Below, in pieces: positions 1-9,947 of a stretch of DNA of 63,635 bases. The position numbers were made by a program, and so were the translations under genes. Numbering within the stretch: the stretch's first letter is position 1; each line of letters starts with the position of its first letter. The notes below the pieces were generated by a model that saw only the letters and a list, made by a program, of their open reading frames with translations, ran no database searches and was not told where the DNA came from. Source of the DNA: Gallionellaceae bacterium (GTDB lineage: Bacteria > Pseudomonadota > Gammaproteobacteria > Burkholderiales > Gallionellaceae); the NCBI GenBank assembly GCA_030834965.1, contig JAUQWW010000095.1:1-63635 (forward strand). The letters are read 5' to 3'.

Positions 1-354
1 GCGCTGGCCATTGCGGTGGGCGATGCGCTGCTGATGCTGCAGTACGCCACCTACTCGGTTATTTCGCCCGAAGGCTGCGCCTCCATCCTGTGGAAAAGCG
101 CGGACAAGGCACCGGACGCGGCAGAAACGCTGGGCATTACCGCCACTCGTCTGAAGACGCTGGGGCTGATCGACAAGATCGTCAACGAGCCGGTGGGCGG
201 CGCACACCGCGATTACCCGGCGATGATGCAGACCCTGAAAAAAACTTTGCAGGATACGCTCAAGCAGGTGCAATCCCAACCCATAGACGCGCTGTTGCAG
301 ACCCGTTTCAACCGCCTGATGGGCTATGGAAAATTCAAGGAAGTCGAACTCTAG
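1..354 (+). CDS. accA: Acetyl-CoA carboxylase carboxyltransferase subunit alpha, C-terminal part
   Basis: This is the 3' end of accA; the 5' part lies before the window. The visible 117 codons read in frame 1 from base 1 and end at TAG. The segment with [20 protein letters not shown] and then ILWK, followed by the helix with [18 protein letters not shown], is the typical C-terminal part of AccA, which binds carboxybiotin on BCCP and transfers the carboxyl group to acetyl-CoA in the cytoplasm as an A2D2 complex with AccD. tilS starts inside its last codons, so the two are probably co-transcribed, an order common in betaproteobacteria. Confidence 0.95.
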
Positions 355-1777
355 GGTTTTGCTTGAGCACGTAGGCGCCGCGCTCCTTCCCGTGGTTCCT
401 GCGGGCAGTTCCATCCTGCTGGGTTTAAGCGGTGGTGTCGATTCTGTCGTGCTGCTGCACTTGTTGCAGCAGCTTTCACCGCGCCATTCCTGGCGCCTCA
501 GCGCCTTACATGTACATCACGGCATCAGCCCGCGCGCTGATGCCTGGGCGGCGTTCTGTGCAGACCTGTGCGCGCGCATAGGCGTTCCGCTGCACATTGA
601 GCATGTGGACATCACGCCGCTGCGCGATCTGGGCATCGAGGCGGCTGCGCGCAAGCTGCGCCATGCCGCGCTGGCCCGGCAGCAGGCGGATTTCGTTGCG
701 CTCGCGCATCACCAGGACGATCAGGTGGAAACCATGCTCCTGCAACTGCTGCGCGGCGCCGGTGTGCGCGGAGCGAGCGCGATGCCATTAGTTAAAAAAA
801 ACACTTCTCAATCGTCATTCCTGCGCAGACGGGAATCCAGTTTAATCAACCGGCTAGATTCCCGCCGGCGCGGGAATGACAACCTTGATTTTCCCGGGGA
901 TAAATCTCACCCCGCTATCTTGCTGCGCCCCCTGCTCGACACCCCCCGCTCTGTCTTGCTGGATTATGCGCAGCGGCATGCGCTGCAATGGGTGGAAGAC
1001 GAGAGCAACGCCGACGACGCCTATCCGCGAAATTTTTTGCGCCATCGCATCCTGCCGTTGCTTGAGCAGCGCTTTCCGGCCTACCGCGACACCTTGTCGC
1101 GCAGCGCACGCCATTTTGCCGAGGCGGCCACGCTGCTGGATGATCTGGCGGAACAGGATGCGGCTGTTGCTTTACAGGGCGAGAGCCTGGATGTCAGCCA
1201 GCTGCATACTTTGGACGCCGCACGCGGCAAAAATCTGTTGCGTTATTTTCTTGCGGCGCAGCGCGCACCCATTCCGGACAGCACGTGCCTGGAAGAAATG
1301 CTGCGCCAGCTGTGCTGCGCGCGCAACGATGCGGCAGTGAATCTCACCTTCGGCGGATGGCAGGTCAGACGCTATCAGGAAAGGGCTTACGCCTTCCCGG
1401 AATTGCCGGGCGACGACGCAGGATTTTGCGTGCAGTGGCGCGGCGAGGCCGTGCTGGAATTGCCCGAGCTGGGCGGTGTGCTGCATTTTGAGTCGTGTGT
1501 CGGGCAGGGCTTGAGCAGCGAGAAATTGCAACAGGCCACCGTCAGCGTGCGGCTGCGCCATGGCGCAGAACGCATCCGTCCGGACAACAAACGCCCAACG
1601 CGCACGCTGAAGAATCTGCTGCAAGAGCAGGGTATGCCGCCCTGGCAACGCGACTCCCTGCCACTGCTGTATTGCGGCGAGGAGCTGGTGTGTGCGCCGG
1701 GCGTGGCGACAGCGTCAGCCTGGCAGGCGCAAGCCGGTGAAGCGGGGCTGCTGGTCAGCTGGCACAGGAGAAAGTGA
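326..1777 (+). CDS. tilS: tRNA(Ile)-lysidine synthase with an in-frame repeat insertion
   Basis: TilS ligates lysine to C34 of the CAU anticodon of tRNA-Ile so that it reads AUA. The PP-loop SGGVDS is at residues 35-40, the conserved [12 protein letters not shown] helix follows near residue 240, and the TilS C-terminal domain fills the end. The start chosen is ATG 326, inside accA; TTG 359 is an alternative and no strong ribosome site decides it. Residues about 157-196, between SAMPLV and ILLRPLL, are not TilS-like: they are the translation of a palindromic repeat (bases 814-880) plus flanks. The frame stays open through it, so the gene may still work. The 3' end overlaps the convergent aldolase-like gene by 63 bases. 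Confidence 0.93.
814..880. repeat. Palindromic intergenic-type repeat inside tilS
   Basis: Left arm 814-836 and right arm 858-880 are inverted copies of the same 23 bases with three mismatches, with outer ends GTCATTCC and GGAATGAC and inner ends GGGAAT and ATTCCC. This is the familiar ATTCCC/GGGAAT style of short repeat that proteobacteria usually carry between genes. Here it lies inside an open reading frame and adds whole codons without a stop. Confidence 0.85.
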
Positions 1778-3007
1778 AGGGGCCGCGCTCGTAGCTCCGT
1801 CTGTCAGGGGGAGAGCTGCGGCGCCGGGTTTGACGCCAACCACGATATAGTCGGCAGTAAAGCGATCGGCGGCAGCCGGGCGGAACAGGCGGTCGGCAAA
1901 GGCGACGTGGGCGGGGTGGTGCTTGTAGTGCTCGATGACCGTGCTTGAAGCAAAGCGGATCAGCCAGCAATGGCGATAACGCGCGCTCTTGTCCGCGACG
2001 CTGCCGACCTCCACCTCGCGCACGCCGGGAATGGCTGCCAGCACACGCTGGCCTTCTGCCATGACGGCGCGCAGTTCGCCCTCCGCAAGATTGGGTGCGT
2101 TGTAAGCCACGACGTGTTCCACATTGAGCCATGGCCGGCAGCAGGCCAGCACTTCGGCGGCGCGGCCGGCAGCCCCCCACAGGCGCATGCAGCGCTCGAC
2201 TTCCCTACTCACCGCATCGCGCACGCCGGCCAGCAACGCGGTGTAGCTCTTGGCTCCAGACTTTGCCGCGGCGCGGATGCTGTTCGTGGCGAGGTCGGAC
2301 AGGGTGCAGCAGTAGTTGATCTTGGCCACGCCAAGCGTGATCAGTTTGCGATAGTGTTCGTCCGTCAGCCCCGTGCAACCGTGGATGACGAGGGGAATGC
2401 CCAGGGCGGCGTTGATTTCCTTGAGACGCCGCCAGTCGAGCTTAGGCTTGTCCTTCGCGCAGCCCGGCACGGTGCCGACGGAAACCGCGAGAAAATCCAC
2501 GCCGGTGCGCTCCACGAAACCCTTGGCTTCGGCCAGCGTGGTGTAGCCCGGCGCGCCGGGATGGCGTTCGGCATTTTCGCCTTCGTCGCCGGGTGTGTGG
2601 CCCAGCTTGCCTTCCACCGCCACCCCGCAGGCGTGGGCCAACTGAACAACGGCGCGGGTGGCATAGAGGTTGTCTCCGAACGGCAGATGCGAGCCATCCA
2701 CCATGACACTGTTGCAGCCGAGGCGGATGGCTTTTGTTGCCGCATCAGGACCGGCGCCGCGATCCAGATGGATGGCCACCGGCACGGTGGCGCGTTGCGC
2801 CGCCGCCTCTACCGCCGGCATTGCCAGATCAAAATTGAAACCGTTGGCATGTGATTCGGTCACGGACAGAATCACCGGTGCGCGCGCGGTCTCCGCTGCC
2901 GCCATGATGGCATCGAGGAAGTCCAGAGTCGCAAGCTCGAAGGCGCCGACCGCATAGCCGTTGCGATGCGCGTGATGCAGCATGTCGTTCATGTTTACAA
3001 GTGCCAT
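1715..3007 (-). CDS. Class II aldolase-like protein fused to a Dabb domain; zinc site altered
   Basis: The 430-residue product has a class II ketose-bisphosphate aldolase barrel (residues about 1-290) and a stress-response A/B barrel (Dabb) domain (about 297-391), then a Pro/Ala-rich tail. It is the last gene of the cbb operon, which suggests sugar-phosphate chemistry. However, the zinc ligand expected in HLDHG is Arg83 (HLDRG), and the expected GTAHG is GTVPG, so two of three zinc histidines are gone. The catalytic-type Asp82 and the third His (His209 in IHGCTG) remain. A normal zinc aldolase activity is therefore doubtful. The start ATG 3007 (MALVNMNDML) follows a GAGGAAC ribosome site; an upstream start at 3061 is possible but weaker. 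No gene symbol is given because cbbA would imply an unproven activity. Confidence 0.8.
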   Translation of the reverse strand: MALVNMNDMLHHAHRNGYAVGAFELATLDFLDAIMAAAETARAPVILSVTESHANGFNFDLAMPAVEAAAQRATVPVAIHLDRGAGPDAATKAIRLGCNSVMVDGSHLPFGDNLYATRAVVQLAHACGVAVEGKLGHTPGDEGENAERHPGAPGYTTLAEAKGFVERTGVDFLAVSVGTVPGCAKDKPKLDWRRLKEINAALGIPLVIHGCTGLTDEHYRKLITLGVAKINYCCTLSDLATNSIRAAAKSGAKSYTALLAGVRDAVSREVERCMRLWGAAGRAAEVLACCRPWLNVEHVVAYNAPNLAEGELRAVMAEGQRVLAAIPGVREVEVGSVADKSARYRHCWLIRFASSTVIEHYKHHPAHVAFADRLFRPAAADRFTADYIVVGVKPGAAALPLTDGATSAAPSLSPVPADQQPRFTGLRLPG

Positions 3008-3062
3008 GATTGTTCCTCGTGTCTCGTTTACCGTGCTTTCCTCGTAGTGAGCTGTCGTCATC

Positions 3063-3365
3063 TCATTCGTCCTCGCCCAGCTCCGCGTCCCATCCCTGGC
3101 TGCGGGCGCTGGTCATGGCTTCTCCATACAGCTTCGCGTGCCGCTCGCGCAAATCATCGGGGAGGCGGCTGGGGAGATGCGCATAGGGTTCCCAGGCGGC
3201 ATAAACCTTCTCGTAGAGGTTCTGCATGCGTGCAGAATCCCAGCCTGCGCAGGTTTCCGTCTCGGGCAGAATGCCGAACACCCAGGCATCGCGCACTATG
3301 CGCCCCAGATGCGTCAGGCCGCCGTTGTGGTCCTTGTCGATTCCGACATAGAGTTGTTGAGTCAT
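3063..3365 (-). CDS. Conserved small protein of unknown function in the cbb operon
   Basis: I do not recognise a named domain in this 100-residue acidic protein. It begins MTQQLYVGIDKDHNGGLTHL and is rich in Trp and aromatic residues (DAWVFG, AGWD, AAWEPYAHLP), which suggests a compact fold. It has no signal peptide or membrane segment. It lies between cbbO and the aldolase-like gene on the same strand, 2 bases from an in-frame upstream extension of the latter, so the three are probably co-transcribed. Its ATG lies inside a copy of the cbbO 3' end (ATGA), which suggests that it once overlapped the cbbO stop codon. Confidence 0.75.
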   Translation of the reverse strand: MTQQLYVGIDKDHNGGLTHLGRIVRDAWVFGILPETETCAGWDSARMQNLYEKVYAAWEPYAHLPSRLPDDLRERHAKLYGEAMTSARSQGWDAELGEDE

Positions 3366-3533
3366 CGTGTCAATCCTGCGTAAAGTAAGGGAAGCTTTTG
3401 CCTCCGGCCGCTACGCTTAACTTCGCTGTGCGAAGTTAGCCTGCGCCGAAAGCTCCGGTTCCCGAAATCAAGCACCTGTATGTCGCGTGCGTTAGTCATC
3501 GCGTCAATCCGGCGTAAAGTAAGGGAAGCTTTT
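3360..3533. repeat. 40-base direct repeat flanking a hairpin: duplicated cbbO 3' end
   Basis: Bases 3360-3399 and 3494-3533 are the same 40 bases with two mismatches, 134 bases apart. On the minus strand both copies encode the last CbbO residues LPLLYAGLTR followed by TGA. One copy is the real end of cbbO; the other overlaps the start of the next gene. The segment between carries an inverted repeat AACTTCGC/GCGAAGTT around 3419-3437. Confidence 0.85.
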
Positions 3534-5904
3534 CCGGCAATCGTTCCACATGATCCACCACCATGTAGTTCTTGGCCCCGAAGATGCGCGAAACATACTG
3601 ATCCGCTCGCGGATCAAGCGACATGCAGAACGTGGTCACGCCGGAGCGCGCGATTTCCTCCACCGCCTTCTTCGTGTCGAAGCGCAAATACTGCGGGTCG
3701 CGCACGTCCACGTCGGCGGGTTCGCCATCGGTGATCACCAGCAGCAGCTTCTTGGACGACTTCTGCTGTTTCAGGTAATGCCCGGCGTGGCGGATGGCCG
3801 CACCCATGCGCGTGGAAAGCTGGCCGCTCATGCCTGCGAGGCGCGACTTCGGTACATCATTGTAGGGCTGATCGAAGTCCTTGAAGCGGAAATATTCGAC
3901 ATTGTGCCGGCCATCCGATGCAAAGCCGTGGATCGCAAACGGATCGCCGATCTTGTGGATGGCATCCGCCAGCAGCACCGTGGCCTGGCGCGTCAAGTCG
4001 AGCACGCTGTAGTCCTGCCCGCTGACTTTTTCGTTGGTGGATTCCGACAAGTCCAGCAGCACCATGACCGAGATGTCGCGCACCTTGCGCACTGAGCGCA
4101 TCATGATGCGCGGGTCGGGCTGTTGCGCCATGCGCATGTCGACCATCGCGCGGATGGCGGCGTTGACGTCCACTTCGTCGCCGTCTTCCAGCTTGCGGAT
4201 GCGCGTCACGCCCTGCGGTTGCAGCGCGTCCAGCAGAAACTTCAGGCGGCCGATGGTGCGCTTGTGCTGCGCGACAATGTCGTCGATGAGCTGCAGGTCC
4301 CCTGCCTTCGCGCGCTTTTCCAGCACGGTGGCCCAGGCCGGACGCTCAAGCTGAATCTGGTAGTCCCATTCGGCATAGTGGTAGGGCTCGGATACCGGCT
4401 CTTTTCCTTCCGTCTCGTTGTAGGATTTTCCGGTGTCCTCATACGGGAACAGTTCCGTTCCAAGCACCCAGATTTCTTCCGCATCGTCGCCCGCGGTCTC
4501 GACGTCGATTTCGTTGATGAACTCCATCAGGTTGACGTACTTGCGCACTTGCCTGGGCGTTTCATACCCGGCCGCCACGGCCTTGTCGAAATCGAATTCC
4601 TCGAATTCCCAGAAGTAGCGGTTGTCGTCGCGGTACGGCGCGGTGAGTATATCGGTGCGCGGATTGAAGGGAATGCGCTTGCTGATGAATTCGTGCGCGA
4701 GTTGCACGCCTATGTCCCATGAAACCTGATTCGTATCCAGCCTGTCAGCCGACTGCTTGAACAACACGCGCCCCTGGGCGATCCACGGATCGTGGTCCTG
4801 GTAGCCGTCATCCAGCAGGGCCCGCGCCAGGCGGTTGAGATAGTCGCCTGCGGAGTTGCCCTGACCGGCGTCAATGGTATGCAGTTGCGCCCACAGGTGC
4901 TTGAGGCCGGGGAACTTGCGCACTGCCAGTGTTTCCACACGCGCGTCCTCGATCACGCTGATGACGGCCATCTGGAACGGATTGAGCGCTTCGGCCGAGA
5001 TCGGGTCGCGGGTGTACACGATGTGTGCGGCGCAGTGTGCAGCGGCGGCGCGGTACATCTCCAGGCCGGGCACGCGAATTTCGTTTTGCGGCGATCTGGA
5101 AGTCGCTCCCTCTCCCGGGGGGAGAGGGGCCGAACGTTGCCCGCTTGCCGCGGGCAGGATGAAATCATCAAACGCATCGGGCAGATGGATGAAATATCCT
5201 TCCACGAACGGCCGGTAGCCCTCGCGCGTCTCAAAGTCCCCAGACGTCGGCTTCATGAAAAAATCCCGCGCCCACAAGGCGCGCAGGTACATATTGATGC
5301 GGCGCTGCACGTCGATGAACAGCGTGCCCTTGCGTTCCTTCTGCAGCATGGCCAGCGATTCTTTGGACTGCAGGCTGAAGTAGCTGGCCTGCTCGGGATA
5401 ATTGGTGCGGTGTGCGTGGGCGCCCCACAACGCCCAGCGGCGCAAGCCGCCCAGGGTAAGCTGGCTGAAAAGCTTTTCCAGATTTTCCAGCATCGGGCGC
5501 ACGCCGCGCGGCGCCTGGGATATCAGGGTGTTCAGGAATTGCAGGTAGGCGCGAAACAGCGCTTCGTCGCCCAGGCGATTGGCCGCTGTGGGCGCGGTGG
5601 CGAGCACCAGTTCGATCACGCCGCCCGAGGTTTTCGAGGCCAGCGACAGCGCGGTGTGCACCAAGTCCGTCACAATATCTTCGCCGATTTCCTTGGCCAC
5701 CTGAGGTGCGTGATCGATCCAGGTTGCGACCAGGCTGTCTCCCTTGCCCAGGCTCTTCAGCGCGGCGATGCCCTTGAGATAGTTGTCCAGACCGCGCGCA
5801 CTGAAGACACGGGGCGCCTCGACCCATGCAGCGCGCAAGCTTTCATCCAGTTCCGGAGAAAGCGAGGCGAGCAGTTCCTGATAGTCTTCAAGATTGATTG
5901 ACAT
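3496..5904 (-). CDS. cbbO: CbbO, RuBisCO activase adaptor with von Willebrand A domain
   Basis: CbbO works with the AAA+ protein CbbQ to remove inhibitory sugar phosphates from RuBisCO; the VWA domain docks on the large subunit. The 802-residue product has a long helical N-terminal part and a C-terminal VWA domain with a MIDAS signature: DLSES near residue 615, a TRMG threonine loop, and TDGEPAD near 725. ATG 5904 is preferred over GTG 5910 because GGAG lies five bases before it. Residues about 250-272 (including APLPPGEGATSRSP) are the translation of a GC-rich palindromic repeat and look inserted, just before the normal GLEMYRAAAAH segment. The gene lies between cbbQ and the small cbb protein. 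Confidence 0.93.
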   Translation of the reverse strand: MSINLEDYQELLASLSPELDESLRAAWVEAPRVFSARGLDNYLKGIAALKSLGKGDSLVATWIDHAPQVAKEIGEDIVTDLVHTALSLASKTSGGVIELVLATAPTAANRLGDEALFRAYLQFLNTLISQAPRGVRPMLENLEKLFSQLTLGGLRRWALWGAHAHRTNYPEQASYFSLQSKESLAMLQKERKGTLFIDVQRRINMYLRALWARDFFMKPTSGDFETREGYRPFVEGYFIHLPDAFDDFILPAASGQRSAPLPPGEGATSRSPQNEIRVPGLEMYRAAAAHCAAHIVYTRDPISAEALNPFQMAVISVIEDARVETLAVRKFPGLKHLWAQLHTIDAGQGNSAGDYLNRLARALLDDGYQDHDPWIAQGRVLFKQSADRLDTNQVSWDIGVQLAHEFISKRIPFNPRTDILTAPYRDDNRYFWEFEEFDFDKAVAAGYETPRQVRKYVNLMEFINEIDVETAGDDAEEIWVLGTELFPYEDTGKSYNETEGKEPVSEPYHYAEWDYQIQLERPAWATVLEKRAKAGDLQLIDDIVAQHKRTIGRLKFLLDALQPQGVTRIRKLEDGDEVDVNAAIRAMVDMRMAQQPDPRIMMRSVRKVRDISVMVLLDLSESTNEKVSGQDYSVLDLTRQATVLLADAIHKIGDPFAIHGFASDGRHNVEYFRFKDFDQPYNDVPKSRLAGMSGQLSTRMGAAIRHAGHYLKQQKSSKKLLLVITDGEPADVDVRDPQYLRFDTKKAVEEIARSGVTTFCMSLDPRADQYVSRIFGAKNYMVVDHVERLPEKLPLLYAGLTR
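5108..5155. repeat. GC-rich palindromic repeat inside cbbO
   Basis: CCCTCTCCC (5108-5116) and GGGAGAGGG (5120-5128) form a perfect palindrome with three bases between. A second hairpin, GCCCGC/GCGGGC (5139-5144 and 5150-5155), follows. This is the CTCTCCC...GGGAGAG class of intergenic repeat, and a degenerate relative lies at 17682-17710 before der. Here it is translated in frame as part of cbbO. Confidence 0.75.
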
Positions 5905-5955
5905 GGTCACTCCACCAGCAAAGCCACAGCAGGGCGCATCGGCCGTCCTGCTGAA

Positions 5956-6759
5956 TCAGAAATACGTGGTTACTGCCGCGTCCAGCGCATCGCGCATGTC
6001 GGGGTCGTCGGTGATCGGGCGCACCAGCGCCACGCGACAGGCCTTGGCCGGATCGATGCCGGTGGCGATGAGGCTGCCGGCATGAATCAGCATGCGCGTC
6101 GAAATGCCTTCGTCCAGCCCGTGCCCCTTCAGGTTGCGCGCGCGCTCCGCGATGGAAACCAGCTTGTCGGCCACTTCGGCGCTGACGCCGGTTTCGTGCG
6201 TGACGATCTCGGCTTCGATGGCATGTTCGGGATAGTTGAAATCGAGGCAGCCGAAGCGTTGCTTGGTCGACTGCTTCAGGTCCTTCATCAGGCTCTGGTA
6301 GCCGGGGTTGTAGGAGATCACCAGCTGGAAGTCGGGGTGGGCGTGCACCAGTTCTCCCTTCTTTTCCAGCGGCAATGCGCGACGGGTATCGGTCAGCGGG
6401 TGGATCACCACGGTGGTGTCCTGGCGTGCTTCCACCACTTCATCGAGGTAGCAGATCGCGCCGTAGCGGGCCGCCAGCGCAAGCGGGCCATCCTGCCAGC
6501 GCGTGCCGTTGGCGTCGAGCAGGAAGCGCCCGACCAGATCGGAGGCGGTCATGTCCTCGTTGCAGGCCACGGTGATCAGCGGCTTGCCCAGCTTCCACGC
6601 CATGTGCTCGACGAAGCGTGTCTTGCCGCAGCCGGTCGGTCCCTTGAGCATCATGGGCATGCGTACCGCGTAGGTGGCCTCGTAGACTTCCACCTCGTCG
6701 GCGACGGGGCGATAGTAGGGTTCTTGTTCGATCAGATATTGCTTGACGATGTCGCTCAT
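5956..6759 (-). CDS. cbbQ: CbbQ, MoxR-type AAA+ RuBisCO activase
   Basis: CbbQ is the hexameric ATPase motor of the CbbQO activase. The 267-residue product has Walker A GPTGCGKT (residues 40-47), Walker B ICYLDE (about 102-107) and the MoxR-family sensor region after it. The start ATG 6759 (MSDIVKQYLIEQ) is chosen because GGAGAAC lies just before it; the ORF could extend four codons to 6771. It is followed by cbbO after about 50 bases and preceded by cbbS after a 143-base gap that holds a strong hairpin. Confidence 0.95.
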   Translation of the reverse strand: MSDIVKQYLIEQEPYYRPVADEVEVYEATYAVRMPMMLKGPTGCGKTRFVEHMAWKLGKPLITVACNEDMTASDLVGRFLLDANGTRWQDGPLALAARYGAICYLDEVVEARQDTTVVIHPLTDTRRALPLEKKGELVHAHPDFQLVISYNPGYQSLMKDLKQSTKQRFGCLDFNYPEHAIEAEIVTHETGVSAEVADKLVSIAERARNLKGHGLDEGISTRMLIHAGSLIATGIDPAKACRVALVRPITDDPDMRDALDAAVTTYF

Positions 6760-6861
6760 GATGTTCTCCATCTACGTGCTCAACACAGGGGCGCAAGTGC
6801 CCGGGCTAGGCAGGCGCTTGTGTCCATGTGCGGAACTCTCATTCCAGCACAGCCGGAAACT

Positions 6862-6890
6862 CCCGCCGCCACGGAAAGTTGGGCGGCGGG
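6862..6890 (-). promoter_or_regulatory. Strong hairpin between cbbS and cbbQ
   Basis: CCCGCCGCC (6862-6870) pairs perfectly with GGCGGCGGG (6882-6890) across an 11-base loop, starting 12 bases after the cbbS stop. No run of U follows in the direction of transcription. It may act as a leaky terminator or mRNA 3'-end stabiliser so that cbbLS message exceeds cbbQO message; this role is inferred. Confidence 0.6.
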
Positions 6891-6902
6891 AAAGAGGCTG
6901 CG

Positions 6903-7259
6903 TCAGACGGTCTTGCCGCGGAAAATCACCATCGATGCGCCCTGCGATTGCTTGAAGTTGTCGTAACCGATCAAGCGCACGTGGTTGTTGGGGTTGGCCT
7001 TGTGACAGGCTTCTGCTTCAGCCAGGATGCGGTCCACGTCGGTTTCGCCGAACATCGGTAGCTTCCACATATACCAGTACGAGTCCATCAGATGCTCGGG
7101 CTCGGTATGCTCGATGGCCGGGTTCCAGCCATTGCTCACCAGGTATACCACCTGCTTGCGGATACTGGCCGCATCCATCGCGGGCAGGTATGAGAAGGTT
7201 TCGAATTTGCGGCTGGCCGGGTCGGACAGGCGCGATTTGTAGTCCATTACTTCACTCAT
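6903..7259 (-). CDS. cbbS: RuBisCO small subunit, form I
   Basis: The 118-residue product has the form I small-subunit pattern ([30 protein letters not shown]; the C-terminal [14 protein letters not shown]). Eight copies cap the L8S8 enzyme and are needed for full activity. Two tandem ATG codons occur at 7262 and 7259; the second is preferred because of its spacing to the AGGAG site. It follows cbbL by 68 bases on the same strand. Confidence 0.97.
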
Positions 7260-7327
7260 CATTTTCTCCTTAAATGTGTTGGTTAACCGCAGGGGAAAGC
7301 GCTATGCCTCCCCCATTGCCGGCATCG

Positions 7328-8746
7328 TTACTTGTGCGCCACGTCCAGCTTGTCCACGGTGTCGAACTCGAATTTGATCTCTTTCCAGGTTTCGAGAGCG
7401 ATCTTCAGTTCGGGGCTGGATTCGGCGGCCTTCTGCAGCACGGCCTTGCCGTCCTTCTCCACGGCGATGCCCTTGTTGCGCGCTTCCACGCAGGCTTCCA
7501 GCGCGACGCGGTTGGCCGCTGCACCAGCGGCATTGCCCCAGGGGTGGCCCAGCGTGCCCCCGCCGAATTGCAGCACCGAGTCATCGCCGAAGATGTTGAC
7601 CAGCGCGGGCATGTGCCATACGTGAATGCCGCCGGATGCCACCGGCATCACGCCCGGCATGGAGCCGAAATCCTGATCGAAGAAGATGCCGCGCGCACGG
7701 TCTTCCTTGATGAACTCGTCACGCATGATGTCGATCCAGCCCAGGGTCGCCTCACGGTCGCCTTCGAGCTTGCCCACGACGGTGCCGGAGTGCAGGTGGT
7801 CACCACCTGACAGACGCAGCACTTTGGTCAGCACGCGGAAGTGGATGCCGTGGTGCGGGTTGCGGTCGAGCACGGCGTGCATGGCGCGGTGAATGTGCAG
7901 CAGCATGCCGTTGTTGCGGCACCAGTTGGCCAGACCCGTGTTGGCGGTCAGGCCGCCGGTCAGGTAGTCATGCATAATGATCGGTGCGCCGATTTCCTTG
8001 GCGTACTCGGCGCGCTTGTACATCTCTTCCGGAGTCGGGGCGGTCACGTTCAGGTAGTGGCCCTTGCGCTCGCCGGTCTCGCGCTGTGCCTTTTCAGTGG
8101 CTTCGTGCACGAAGGTGAAACGATCGCGCCAACGCATGAAAGGCTGGCTGTTGACGTTCTCGTCGTCCTTGGTGAAGTCCAGACCGCCGCGCAGGCATTC
8201 GTACACGGCGCGACCGTAGTTTTTGGCGGACAGACCCAATTTAGGCTTAATCGTGCAGCCCAGCAATGGACGGCCATACTTGTTCATGATGTCGCGCTCG
8301 ACCTGAATACCTTGAGGCGGGCCGCCGCAGGTCTTCACGTAGGCGATGGGGAAGCGCACGTCTTCCAGGCGCAGGGCACGCAGGGCCTTGAAGCCAAACA
8401 CGTTGCCGACCAGCGAGGTCAGTACGTTGACCATCGAGCCTTCTTCAAACAGGTCGATGGGGTAAGCCACGAAAGCGTAGAAGCAGGTGTCGTCGCCGGG
8501 TACATCTTCGATGCGGTAGGCGCGACCCTTGTAGTAATCCAGGTCGGTCAGCAGATCGGTCCAGACCGTGGTCCAGGTGCCGGTGGACGACTCGGCCGCC
8601 ACGGCGGCGGCGACTTCCTCGCGCGGCACGCCCGGCTGCGGTGTGATCTTGAAGCAGGCGAGGATGTCGGTATCCAGTGGTGTATATTCCGGCATCCAGT
8701 AGGTTTCGCGGTATTCCTTTACACCCGCGTTGTATATTTTGGCCAT
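7328..8746 (-). CDS. cbbL: RuBisCO large subunit, form IA
   Basis: This enzyme carboxylates ribulose-1,5-bisphosphate in the Calvin cycle. The 472-residue product carries the catalytic TIKPKLGLS segment (residues 165-173), the carbamylated-lysine site FTKDDEN (Lys193, Asp195, Glu196, matching K201/D203/E204 of spinach) and loop 6 [11 protein letters not shown] near 326. The N-terminus [20 protein letters not shown] and the partner genes cbbQO indicate the form IAq, non-carboxysomal type; no carboxysome genes are seen. The start at 8746 follows TGAGGAGTCGACAA. An upstream ATG at 8812 is rejected because it lies in the leader. Divergent cbbR probably controls it. Confidence 0.98.
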
Positions 8747-8912
8747 TTGTCGACTCCTCAATAGTAAAGTAACAGTCATGAAAGTTGGCATGCAGGTCAT
8801 GCCCCACCGCATGCAGACCGCCCCCGCGGGTGTCTTGCATGGGGTTGACTATAGTGATTGTTCGTAGTAAATAAAACTTAATGTTGTTAACACCTAGAAT
8901 ATACTTTTGTAA
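8747..8912. promoter_or_regulatory. cbbL-cbbR divergent control region with a CbbR-type box
   Basis: The dyad TTAATGTTGTTAA at 8878-8890 fits the LysR-family T-N11-A pattern with TTAA on both sides. On the minus strand, TTTTAT and TATAGT spaced by 17 bases, just downstream of the box, are a weak candidate for the cbbL promoter. The leader also holds two direct copies of GCATGCAG. The assignment to CbbR is from position and pattern only. Confidence 0.5.
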
Positions 8913-9827
8913 ATGATTTATCACTGCACGCTGCAACAGCTCCGCATCTTCGAGGCCGTGGCCCGGCTCCGCAGCTATACGCGCGCGGCGGAAGAGCTTT
9001 ATCTGACGCAGCCGGCCGTCCATATCCAGATCAAGCGCCTGGAGGAGAACATGGGCTTGCCGCTGATCGAGCAGGTGGGCAAGAAACTCCTGCTGACCCG
9101 GGCCGGGGAGGAGGTCTACGACGCTGCGCTGGGCGTGATCACCCGCCTCAAGACCCTCTCGGGCAGGCTGTCGGACATGAAGGGCAAGGTGGCCGGGCCG
9201 CTGAAAGTGGCGGTGGTCACTTCTGCCAAATTTTTCATGCCGCATTTGCTCGGGAATTTCCTGCGCGAGTACCCGGATGTTCATCCGCAACTCACCGTCA
9301 CCAACCGCGCGCGTGCGGTCGAGCGTTTGCAGAACAACCTGGACGATTTTGTGGTCATGGGTCAGGTGCCGGATCATATGGCGCTGACGGTTCAGCCATT
9401 CATGGAAAACATTCTGGTGCCCATTGCGCATCCGGATCATCCTCTGGCGAAAGAAAAGGCGATCCCGCTGGAAAAGTTTGCGGCCGAGAGATTTCTGATG
9501 CGCGAGAGCGGATCCGGTACGCGCGCCGTAACCGAGCGCCTGTTTGCCGAGCATGGATTGGCGCCGGTAAACACGTATATGGAGCTCGGGTCGAGCGAGG
9601 CCGTCAAGCAGGGTGTCATGGCCGGGCTTGGGGTGTCAGTCCTTTCCACCAGCAGCATTGCCCTGGAGACAGAGACCGGCCGCATCGCCATACTGGATGT
9701 GCAGCACTTTCCCTTGCGCCGGATGTGGTATGCGGCGCATCTGAAAGGCAAGCAGCTCGGGCTGACCGCGAGTGTGTTTCTGGATTATCTGATGCAGGTG
9801 GGAAGCCGCGAACCTTCACCGAAATGA
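8913..9827 (+). CDS. cbbR: CbbR, LysR-type regulator of the cbb operon
   Basis: The 304-residue product has an N-terminal winged helix (LQQLRIFEAVARLRSYTRAA; LTQPAVHIQIKRLEE, residues about 5-60) and a periplasmic-binding-like effector domain with GSGTRAVTERLF near residue 195. LysR regulators divergent from cbbL normally activate the Calvin operon and sense metabolites such as RuBP or NADPH. The ATG at 8913 has no clear ribosome site. It is transcribed away from cbbL across a 166-base intergenic region that holds the proposed operator. Confidence 0.92.
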   Translation: MIYHCTLQQLRIFEAVARLRSYTRAAEELYLTQPAVHIQIKRLEENMGLPLIEQVGKKLLLTRAGEEVYDAALGVITRLKTLSGRLSDMKGKVAGPLKVAVVTSAKFFMPHLLGNFLREYPDVHPQLTVTNRARAVERLQNNLDDFVVMGQVPDHMALTVQPFMENILVPIAHPDHPLAKEKAIPLEKFAAERFLMRESGSGTRAVTERLFAEHGLAPVNTYMELGSSEAVKQGVMAGLGVSVLSTSSIALETETGRIAILDVQHFPLRRMWYAAHLKGKQLGLTASVFLDYLMQVGSREPSPK

Positions 9828-9947
9828 CAACGGGTGCGATGCTGCCGCGGAATATTGGGCTCATGCAGTGCGACATCTGTTGCAAAGCCTGATAAAATAA
9901 CGGGCTGTTTCCTTTGATTAACTTAATTTACGTTTGGAGAAAGTAGC

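Follow-up and report, generated by a model that had tools for sequence, protein, structure and literature searches.

A candidate pseudo-aldolase fused to a Dabb domain at the end of a RuBisCO operon in a Gallionellaceae bacterium

When an aldolase gene stands in a Calvin operon, its product is taken for a Calvin-cycle enzyme. Class II fructose-bisphosphate aldolases hold their zinc by three histidines and use a catalytic aspartate, Asp82. The window, i.e. the whole stretch of 63,635 nucleotides analysed here from contig JAUQWW010000095.1 of a Gallionellaceae bacterium, carries as the last gene of a cbb operon an aldolase homologue in which two of these histidines are replaced. This raises the question of whether the gene still encodes an enzyme, is on its way to loss, or persists through another role. 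The features on which the analysis is based are the following.

1715-3007, minus strand: candidate pseudo-aldolase/Dabb protein, 430 aa, final gene of the cbb operon (ORF, Pfam, AlphaFold2 model)
2162-2998, minus strand: class II aldolase barrel, residues 4-282 (PF01116, 262 bits; closest solved folds)
1841-2122, minus strand: Dabb domain, residues 296-389 (PF07876, 48 bits; conserved columns)
2759-2764, minus strand: D82, kept, and R83, replacing the first zinc His (alignment to relatives)
2606-2608, minus strand: K134, replacing the conserved Glu of VEGELG (alignment to relatives)
2459-2467, minus strand: P181, replacing the second zinc His, and new C183 (alignment to relatives)
2375-2383, minus strand: H209, the third zinc His, kept, and C211, replacing a Gly of 71/71 intact relatives (alignment)
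2306-2311, minus strand: new C233 and C234; residue 234 is Thr in 70/71 intact relatives (alignment)
3063-3365, minus strand: ORF100, a conserved reading frame of 100 aa lying between the cbbO and aldolase genes (counterparts in many cbb operons)
3496-5910, minus strand: cbbO-like VWA protein (Pfam), which we presume from operon position to be cbbO
5956-6771, minus strand: cbbQ (CbbQ_C and AAA_5)
6903-7262, minus strand: cbbS (ORF, matches in relatives), a name we assume from sequence and position
7328-8812, minus strand: cbbL, RuBisCO large subunit, start codon provisional (sequence match), which we take to be form I
8913-9827, plus strand: LysR regulator, cbbR-like, divergent (sequence match)

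The aldolase/Dabb frame was complete, running from an ATG at 3007 to a stop codon at 1717-1715. Its residue 1 coincided with the start of most of the tblastn alignments to homologues, and a candidate ribosome-binding site (GAGGA) was read from the sequence six bases 5' of the ATG. Gene order was cbbL-cbbS-cbbQ-cbbO-ORF100-aldolase, the place behind cbbQ-cbbO being that of a CbbA-type fusion, and the 3' end of the gene overlapped that of tilS tail to tail. The description of an intact aldolase/Dabb ORF ending the operon, given in an earlier sequence-only reading, was thus borne out by the frame, Pfam and gene order. An artefact of the gene was rejected, as the frame is intact, the start matches the homologues and several separate codons are changed; because the active-site changes are spread across several codons, a single sequencing error is excluded.

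Some side observations concern the neighbouring sequence. At the cut-offs applied, neither Pfam nor NCBIfam recognized ORF100, which was up to 85% identical to its counterparts in other cbb operons. Within cbbO, a low-complexity SAPLPPGEG-like stretch (around 5050-5140) was variable, with differing stretches in five of six compared relatives and a very short one in L149. In tilS, an in-frame stretch (791-900) contained two ATTCCCGC-N4-GCGGGAAT-like palindromes, one of them exact, which looks like a small repeat element within a coding gene; two such palindromes were found allowing up to 3 mismatches, against a mean of 0.69 in shuffles, and two or more occurred in 16/100 shuffles. Scans of window positions 1-9900 returned 2 promoter-like sites (2.5 in shuffles) and 10 terminator-like sites (9.0 in shuffles).

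Alignment to relatives confirmed the HLDRG and GTVPG changes with Asp82 and the third histidine kept, as first noticed. H83 is replaced by Arg (HLDR) and H181 by Pro (GTVPG), so that the three zinc histidines of an active class II aldolase are not all present, whereas H209, the catalytic D82, K229 and N231 remain. By the chemistry of the family, no zinc enolate should form without H83 and H181, and the protein would presumably be unable to run the zinc-enolate aldol reaction. The loss goes beyond the two ligands that had been recognized. Among 71 intact relatives, defined as those with the full signature D82-H83-E134-H181-H209-N231, 69 columns were at least 95% conserved (for H83, E134 and H181 this holds by definition, since the signature columns chose the 71), and the window protein departed at nine of them: H83R, E134K, Y137H, V138T, H181P, G186D, G211C, Q218H and T234C. 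The sequence-only reading was right about the two zinc ligands and had missed E134K (VEGE to VEGK), G211C (HGG to HGC) and T234C, together with the changes at Y137, V138 and Q218. Presumably, G211 and T234 lie near the substrate-phosphate end. G186D is common to the window protein and the intact L033 and L035.

Leaving G186D aside, seven of the eight changes fell in presumed active-site segments, to which 35 of the 69 columns belong (P = 0.027). For H83, E134 and H181 this value is partly circular, because these residues serve to define the set and first called attention to the gene. Once the six signature columns and G186 were removed, four of five changes lay in these segments (P = 0.12), which weakens any strong claim of an active-site focus; as read from the alignment, the concentration of changes there is suggestive, not firm. 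The same test applied to zinc-less relatives gave 6/8 for L034 (P = 0.075), 6/7 for L081 (P = 0.029) and 3/5 for L137 (P = 0.41).

The nature of the replacements could be taken to indicate an aldolase or epimerase that remains active without the canonical ligands, the positive charge of the zinc being provided by Arg83 and Lys134 instead. Basic residues at ligand positions recur, as R83/K134 in the window protein and L137, R83/R209 in L034, K134/R209 in L081 and L082, R209 in L040 and R181 in L160, R83 being present in L034 and L137 as well as here. However, a single base suffices to turn His into Arg or Glu into Lys, K134 is also found in a protein that keeps the three histidines (L110), and G211 and T234 are lost as well, so that on sequence grounds we regard such an enzyme as very unlikely.

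Pfam recognized F_bP_aldolase in residues 4-282, with 262 bits against a curated cut-off of 25.5 for PF01116, and Dabb in residues 296-389 with 48 bits, i.e. the aldolase barrel with C-terminal Dabb of a CbbA-type fusion. AlphaFold2, with a 48-sequence alignment, predicted a barrel and a strand-helix Dabb unit (pLDDT 87.4, pTM 0.85), with low confidence from about residue 393 onward and pLDDT below 50 for residues 181-184, C183 included. The closest solved folds were YdjI (6ofu, Z 38.7) and SqiA (8q57, Z 37.5); the listed structural alignments cover mostly residues 1-289, and the Dabb part was therefore barely tested by the fold search. Its sequence is nevertheless well kept: beyond residue 290, 12 columns reach 85% conservation or more among 66 intact Dabb-bearing relatives, and the window protein retains every one of them. 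The best NCBIfam aldolase equivalog score was 247 bits, below the 406 demanded. Four intact relatives (L033, L035, L084, L108) also stayed below every equivalog cut-off, L108 passing the subfamily model TIGR00167, and therefore the shortfall marks the subfamily and not the window's copy. Judged by these sequence models, the aldolase/Dabb group is a subfamily distinct from the aldolases with named functions.

Ten cysteines were counted in the window protein, five of them absent from near relatives, and four of these five (C183, C211, C233 and C234) lie in three loops around the old metal site. It is conceivable that H209 and these cysteines form a re-made site binding zinc or iron, for a changed reaction or for metal or redox sensing, and the retention of D82, K229 and N231 would suit such a site. 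Nevertheless, among 111 rows of the alignment C183, C211 and C234 were found in the window protein only and C233 elsewhere only in L136, so that no conserved new site was seen; C183 belongs to the stretch modelled with low confidence, and relaxed active-site loops could acquire cysteines by chance. On the sequences at hand we hold a re-made metal site to be quite unlikely.

An alternative is a recently inactivated gene whose frame is still open for want of time. On a fixed tree with codon positions fitted separately, the window branch showed rates of 0.135, 0.078 and 0.649 at first, second and third positions, as compared to 0.140, 0.100 and 1.003 for the intact L033 and 0.126, 0.090 and 1.99 for the intact L035; as some branches come close to saturation at third positions, the ratios are rough. 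First- and second-position rates were low in both the aldolase and the Dabb parts of the gene, and the end branch in the protein tree equalled that of L033 (0.26 in both). The window gene does not look like a decaying gene, and its codon-position rates match those of intact relatives; the earlier statement to this effect stood. Some points do fit a recent inactivation: the genome carries a full aldolase gene elsewhere, branches are long in some of the other zinc-less members (L151 1.04, L040 0.67, L160 0.59), and the window genome is the sole one of its genus in the sample, so that the selection estimate averages over the time before and after the loss. Against it stand the intact frame, start and ribosome-binding site, the end branch, the retention of nearly all columns conserved away from the active-site segments and of the 12 Dabb columns, and the persistence of zinc-less members elsewhere across genera under constraint. 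Where calculable, dN/dS (YN00) in zinc-less clades was 0.036-0.20, inside the range of two intact groups (0.028-0.226). By group, values were 0.07-0.19 (L156), 0.04-0.07 (L154) and 0.10-0.16 (L151), and 0.20 for L081/L082 with a dS of only 0.04; YN00 gave values for part of the pairs and none for the L109 group, where NG86 gave dN of about 0.21-0.23 and dS of about 1.0-1.3. All in all, a gene en route to loss seems unlikely. The traits of a pseudoenzyme (catalytic residues lost, fold conserved, a signal of purifying selection) were found together, the rates being averages over the branch.

A normal class II aldolase was found elsewhere in the genome, at G000:C5:88915-89889 (354 aa, all six signature residues). 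A pyruvate kinase gene precedes it, and nearby lies a gene for a second RuBisCO large subunit, accompanied by cbbQ and a VWA cbbO-like gene. The possibility that the window gene is the only aldolase of the genome was thus rejected. All 17 genomes in which the family match was stronger than 1e-60 also had another class II aldolase match. Since 76/108 rows keep all three zinc histidines, L033 and L035 from the same clade as the window protein among them, and a normal aldolase occurs elsewhere in the genome, we read the window protein as a derived pseudo-aldolase rather than the Calvin-cycle aldolase. It probably descends, though we say so with reserve, from the class II aldolase/Dabb fusion that serves as an accessory aldolase in proteobacterial cbb operons, and has taken on a non-catalytic role. 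The protein may persist as a partner with a structural or regulatory task, or as a ligand-binding subunit, possibly alongside RuBisCO or its CbbQO activase, with the Dabb domain as a putative dimerising or docking module.

Family matches with E values no higher than 1e-40 occurred in 24/158 genomes of the family, 34/399 of the order, 56/369 of the class and 19/398 of the phylum, each count including the window genome and the taxon samples overlapping. In the phylum sample 14 of the 19 were weaker matches, and those that were read had about 280-293 aa and no Dabb. A search of plasmids for named aldolase/Dabb relatives matched 85 records, none with 80% of the query. The rows compared here, with each species represented by one genome, were gathered by similarity to the window protein and are therefore a biased sample; L036, L037, L038 and L042 were dropped as duplicates and identical proteins were merged. 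The first tree was built without L112, L138, L139, L140 and L159, and the masked tree without L138, L139, L039 and the enterobacterial-type aldolases L180-L204; 18 of the 108 masked-tree rows had no neighbourhood stretch.

This wider comparison supported the earlier interpretation only in part. The Dabb fusion, regarded as the mark of something special, belongs to a common cbb-operon aldolase that mostly keeps its histidines. A tie of the altered protein to cbbO was not apparent either, since cbbO lay on the same strand within 7 kb in 19/35 signature-departing rows vs. 35/58 intact ones; in the stretches examined, cbbO, cbbQ or cbbL lay on the same strand within 9 kb in 42/58 intact and 21/35 other rows. 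Nor did the Arg/Pro pair define a set of homologues: among 111 rows it recurred only in L139, which is very divergent and unsurely aligned. The lost zinc site, the lack of signs of decay and the presence of another aldolase are the points of the overall reading that were supported.

Loss of zinc histidines is itself recurrent. In a quick tree for which the key columns were masked, seven changes were needed to account for it, at least five on supported branches, some long branches making the details unsure. The window protein belongs to a clade of 12 rows (support 100), together with the intact L033 and L035 and nine further zinc-less rows; ligands were lost in differing combinations, several times to Arg or Lys; the differing combinations therefore point to repeated loss, or to drift of the sites after one loss.

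Carboxysome-type genes (ParA and a small acRAF-like protein, as at L205, labels that we presume for these neighbours) or DabA (Pfam PF10070; the context of L034 was assigned by hand) were present near 20/27 zinc-less rows vs. 2/63 others. Counted as independent pairs, however, there were four at best (median p 0.5, lowest 0.125), and a clear link between zinc loss and CO2-concentrating loci was not accepted as proven for lack of significance. Neither DabA nor a BMC shell gene was matched in the window genome, and a further six zinc-less rows, likewise without carboxysome-type or DabA neighbours, fall outside the pattern. A survey covering microcompartment loci (PMC4207490) reports CbbO, CbbQ, bacterioferritin, ParA and UPF0753 for more than half of 20 carboxysome loci from chemoautotrophs, and PMC7895386 states that aldolase genes often adjoin RuBisCO.

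Further variation was seen among the collected loci. Eleven Dabb-less aldolase homologues (L104, L105, L156-L158, L205-L210) have D82, H83, E134 and H181 replaced and H209 and N231 kept, and have dN/dS of 0.07-0.19 across four genus codes; in 9/11 stretches a cbbO gene of the same strand is no more than about 5.2 kb away. In the clade of L109, L113, L130 and L135 the second zinc ligand is changed to Gln (GTVQG), together with VVGE, and in three of these rows the gene follows cbbO at a distance of 0.4-0.7 kb. The solved structures include an H180Q variant of the Helicobacter pylori aldolase (5ud1-5ud3), which alters what we take to be the same position; no paper on this variant was found among open-licence papers. 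Among the same-family loci L083-L103, a PurE-like gene lies near the aldolase in 17/21 (of the AIR carboxylase family in L084, 9252-9797), placed between ORF100 and the aldolase in the inspected loci L084 and L087; such a gene had no match within the window.

That a single operon-linked family has lost its active site repeatedly argues for a second function, possibly common to intact members, and taken with the place in the operon it suggests that the family may have a non-catalytic function in RuBisCO operons, which would become visible once catalysis is lost. More tentatively, RuBisCO operons may repeatedly have turned an accessory aldolase non-catalytic, to serve RuBisCO activation or the CO2-concentrating machinery, and the His/Cys cluster of the window protein may bind a different metal. 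Among the matches listed in open-licence papers, no description of such an inactive aldolase or pseudoenzyme class was found. If about three in ten members lack zinc ligands (at least one of H83, H181 and H209 is missing in 32/108 rows of this biased sample), annotations as Calvin-cycle enzymes mislead, and the RuBisCO operon also contains a conserved protein without an assigned function.

The nearest described system is the cbb1 operon of Acidithiobacillus ferrooxidans. PMC2942843 lists, with cbbQ1 and cbbO1, a CbbA carrying Pfam01116 and Pfam07876 (Dabb), reports one transcript by RT-PCR and gives a second cbbA without Dabb in the same genome. The domain pair and the cbb operon are shared with the window, as compared by domains, whereas the cbb1 operon, as described there, includes carboxysome genes and the window's operon has none. 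The fusion and its place were therefore already known, and a unique fusion was rejected since relatives have it too. Thus, L033, L035, L084 and L108 have the same domain order and 55-68% identity, with L035 and L084 also behind cbbQ-cbbO, but all four keep every zinc ligand. Within the window's clade, L034, L081 and L082 share the Dabb tail, the loss of at least one zinc ligand and basic residues in place of ligands; they differ in which ligands are lost and lie near DabA genes (L034 via a contig-end piece), outside a form I cbb operon. L205 and its relatives (11 rows), near cbbQ-cbbO, resemble the window protein in being a Pfam class II aldolase (L205) with ligands lost under constraint, but lack the Dabb tail and occupy a separate position in the tree. 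Finally, YdjI (6ofu), SqiA (8q57), the Bacillus methanolicus FBAP (7ncc) and tagatose-bisphosphate aldolase (1gvf) have the same barrel as the window protein (Z 35.7-38.7); these solved class II aldolases are metal-dependent, and the window protein differs from them in having given up two of the histidine ligands.
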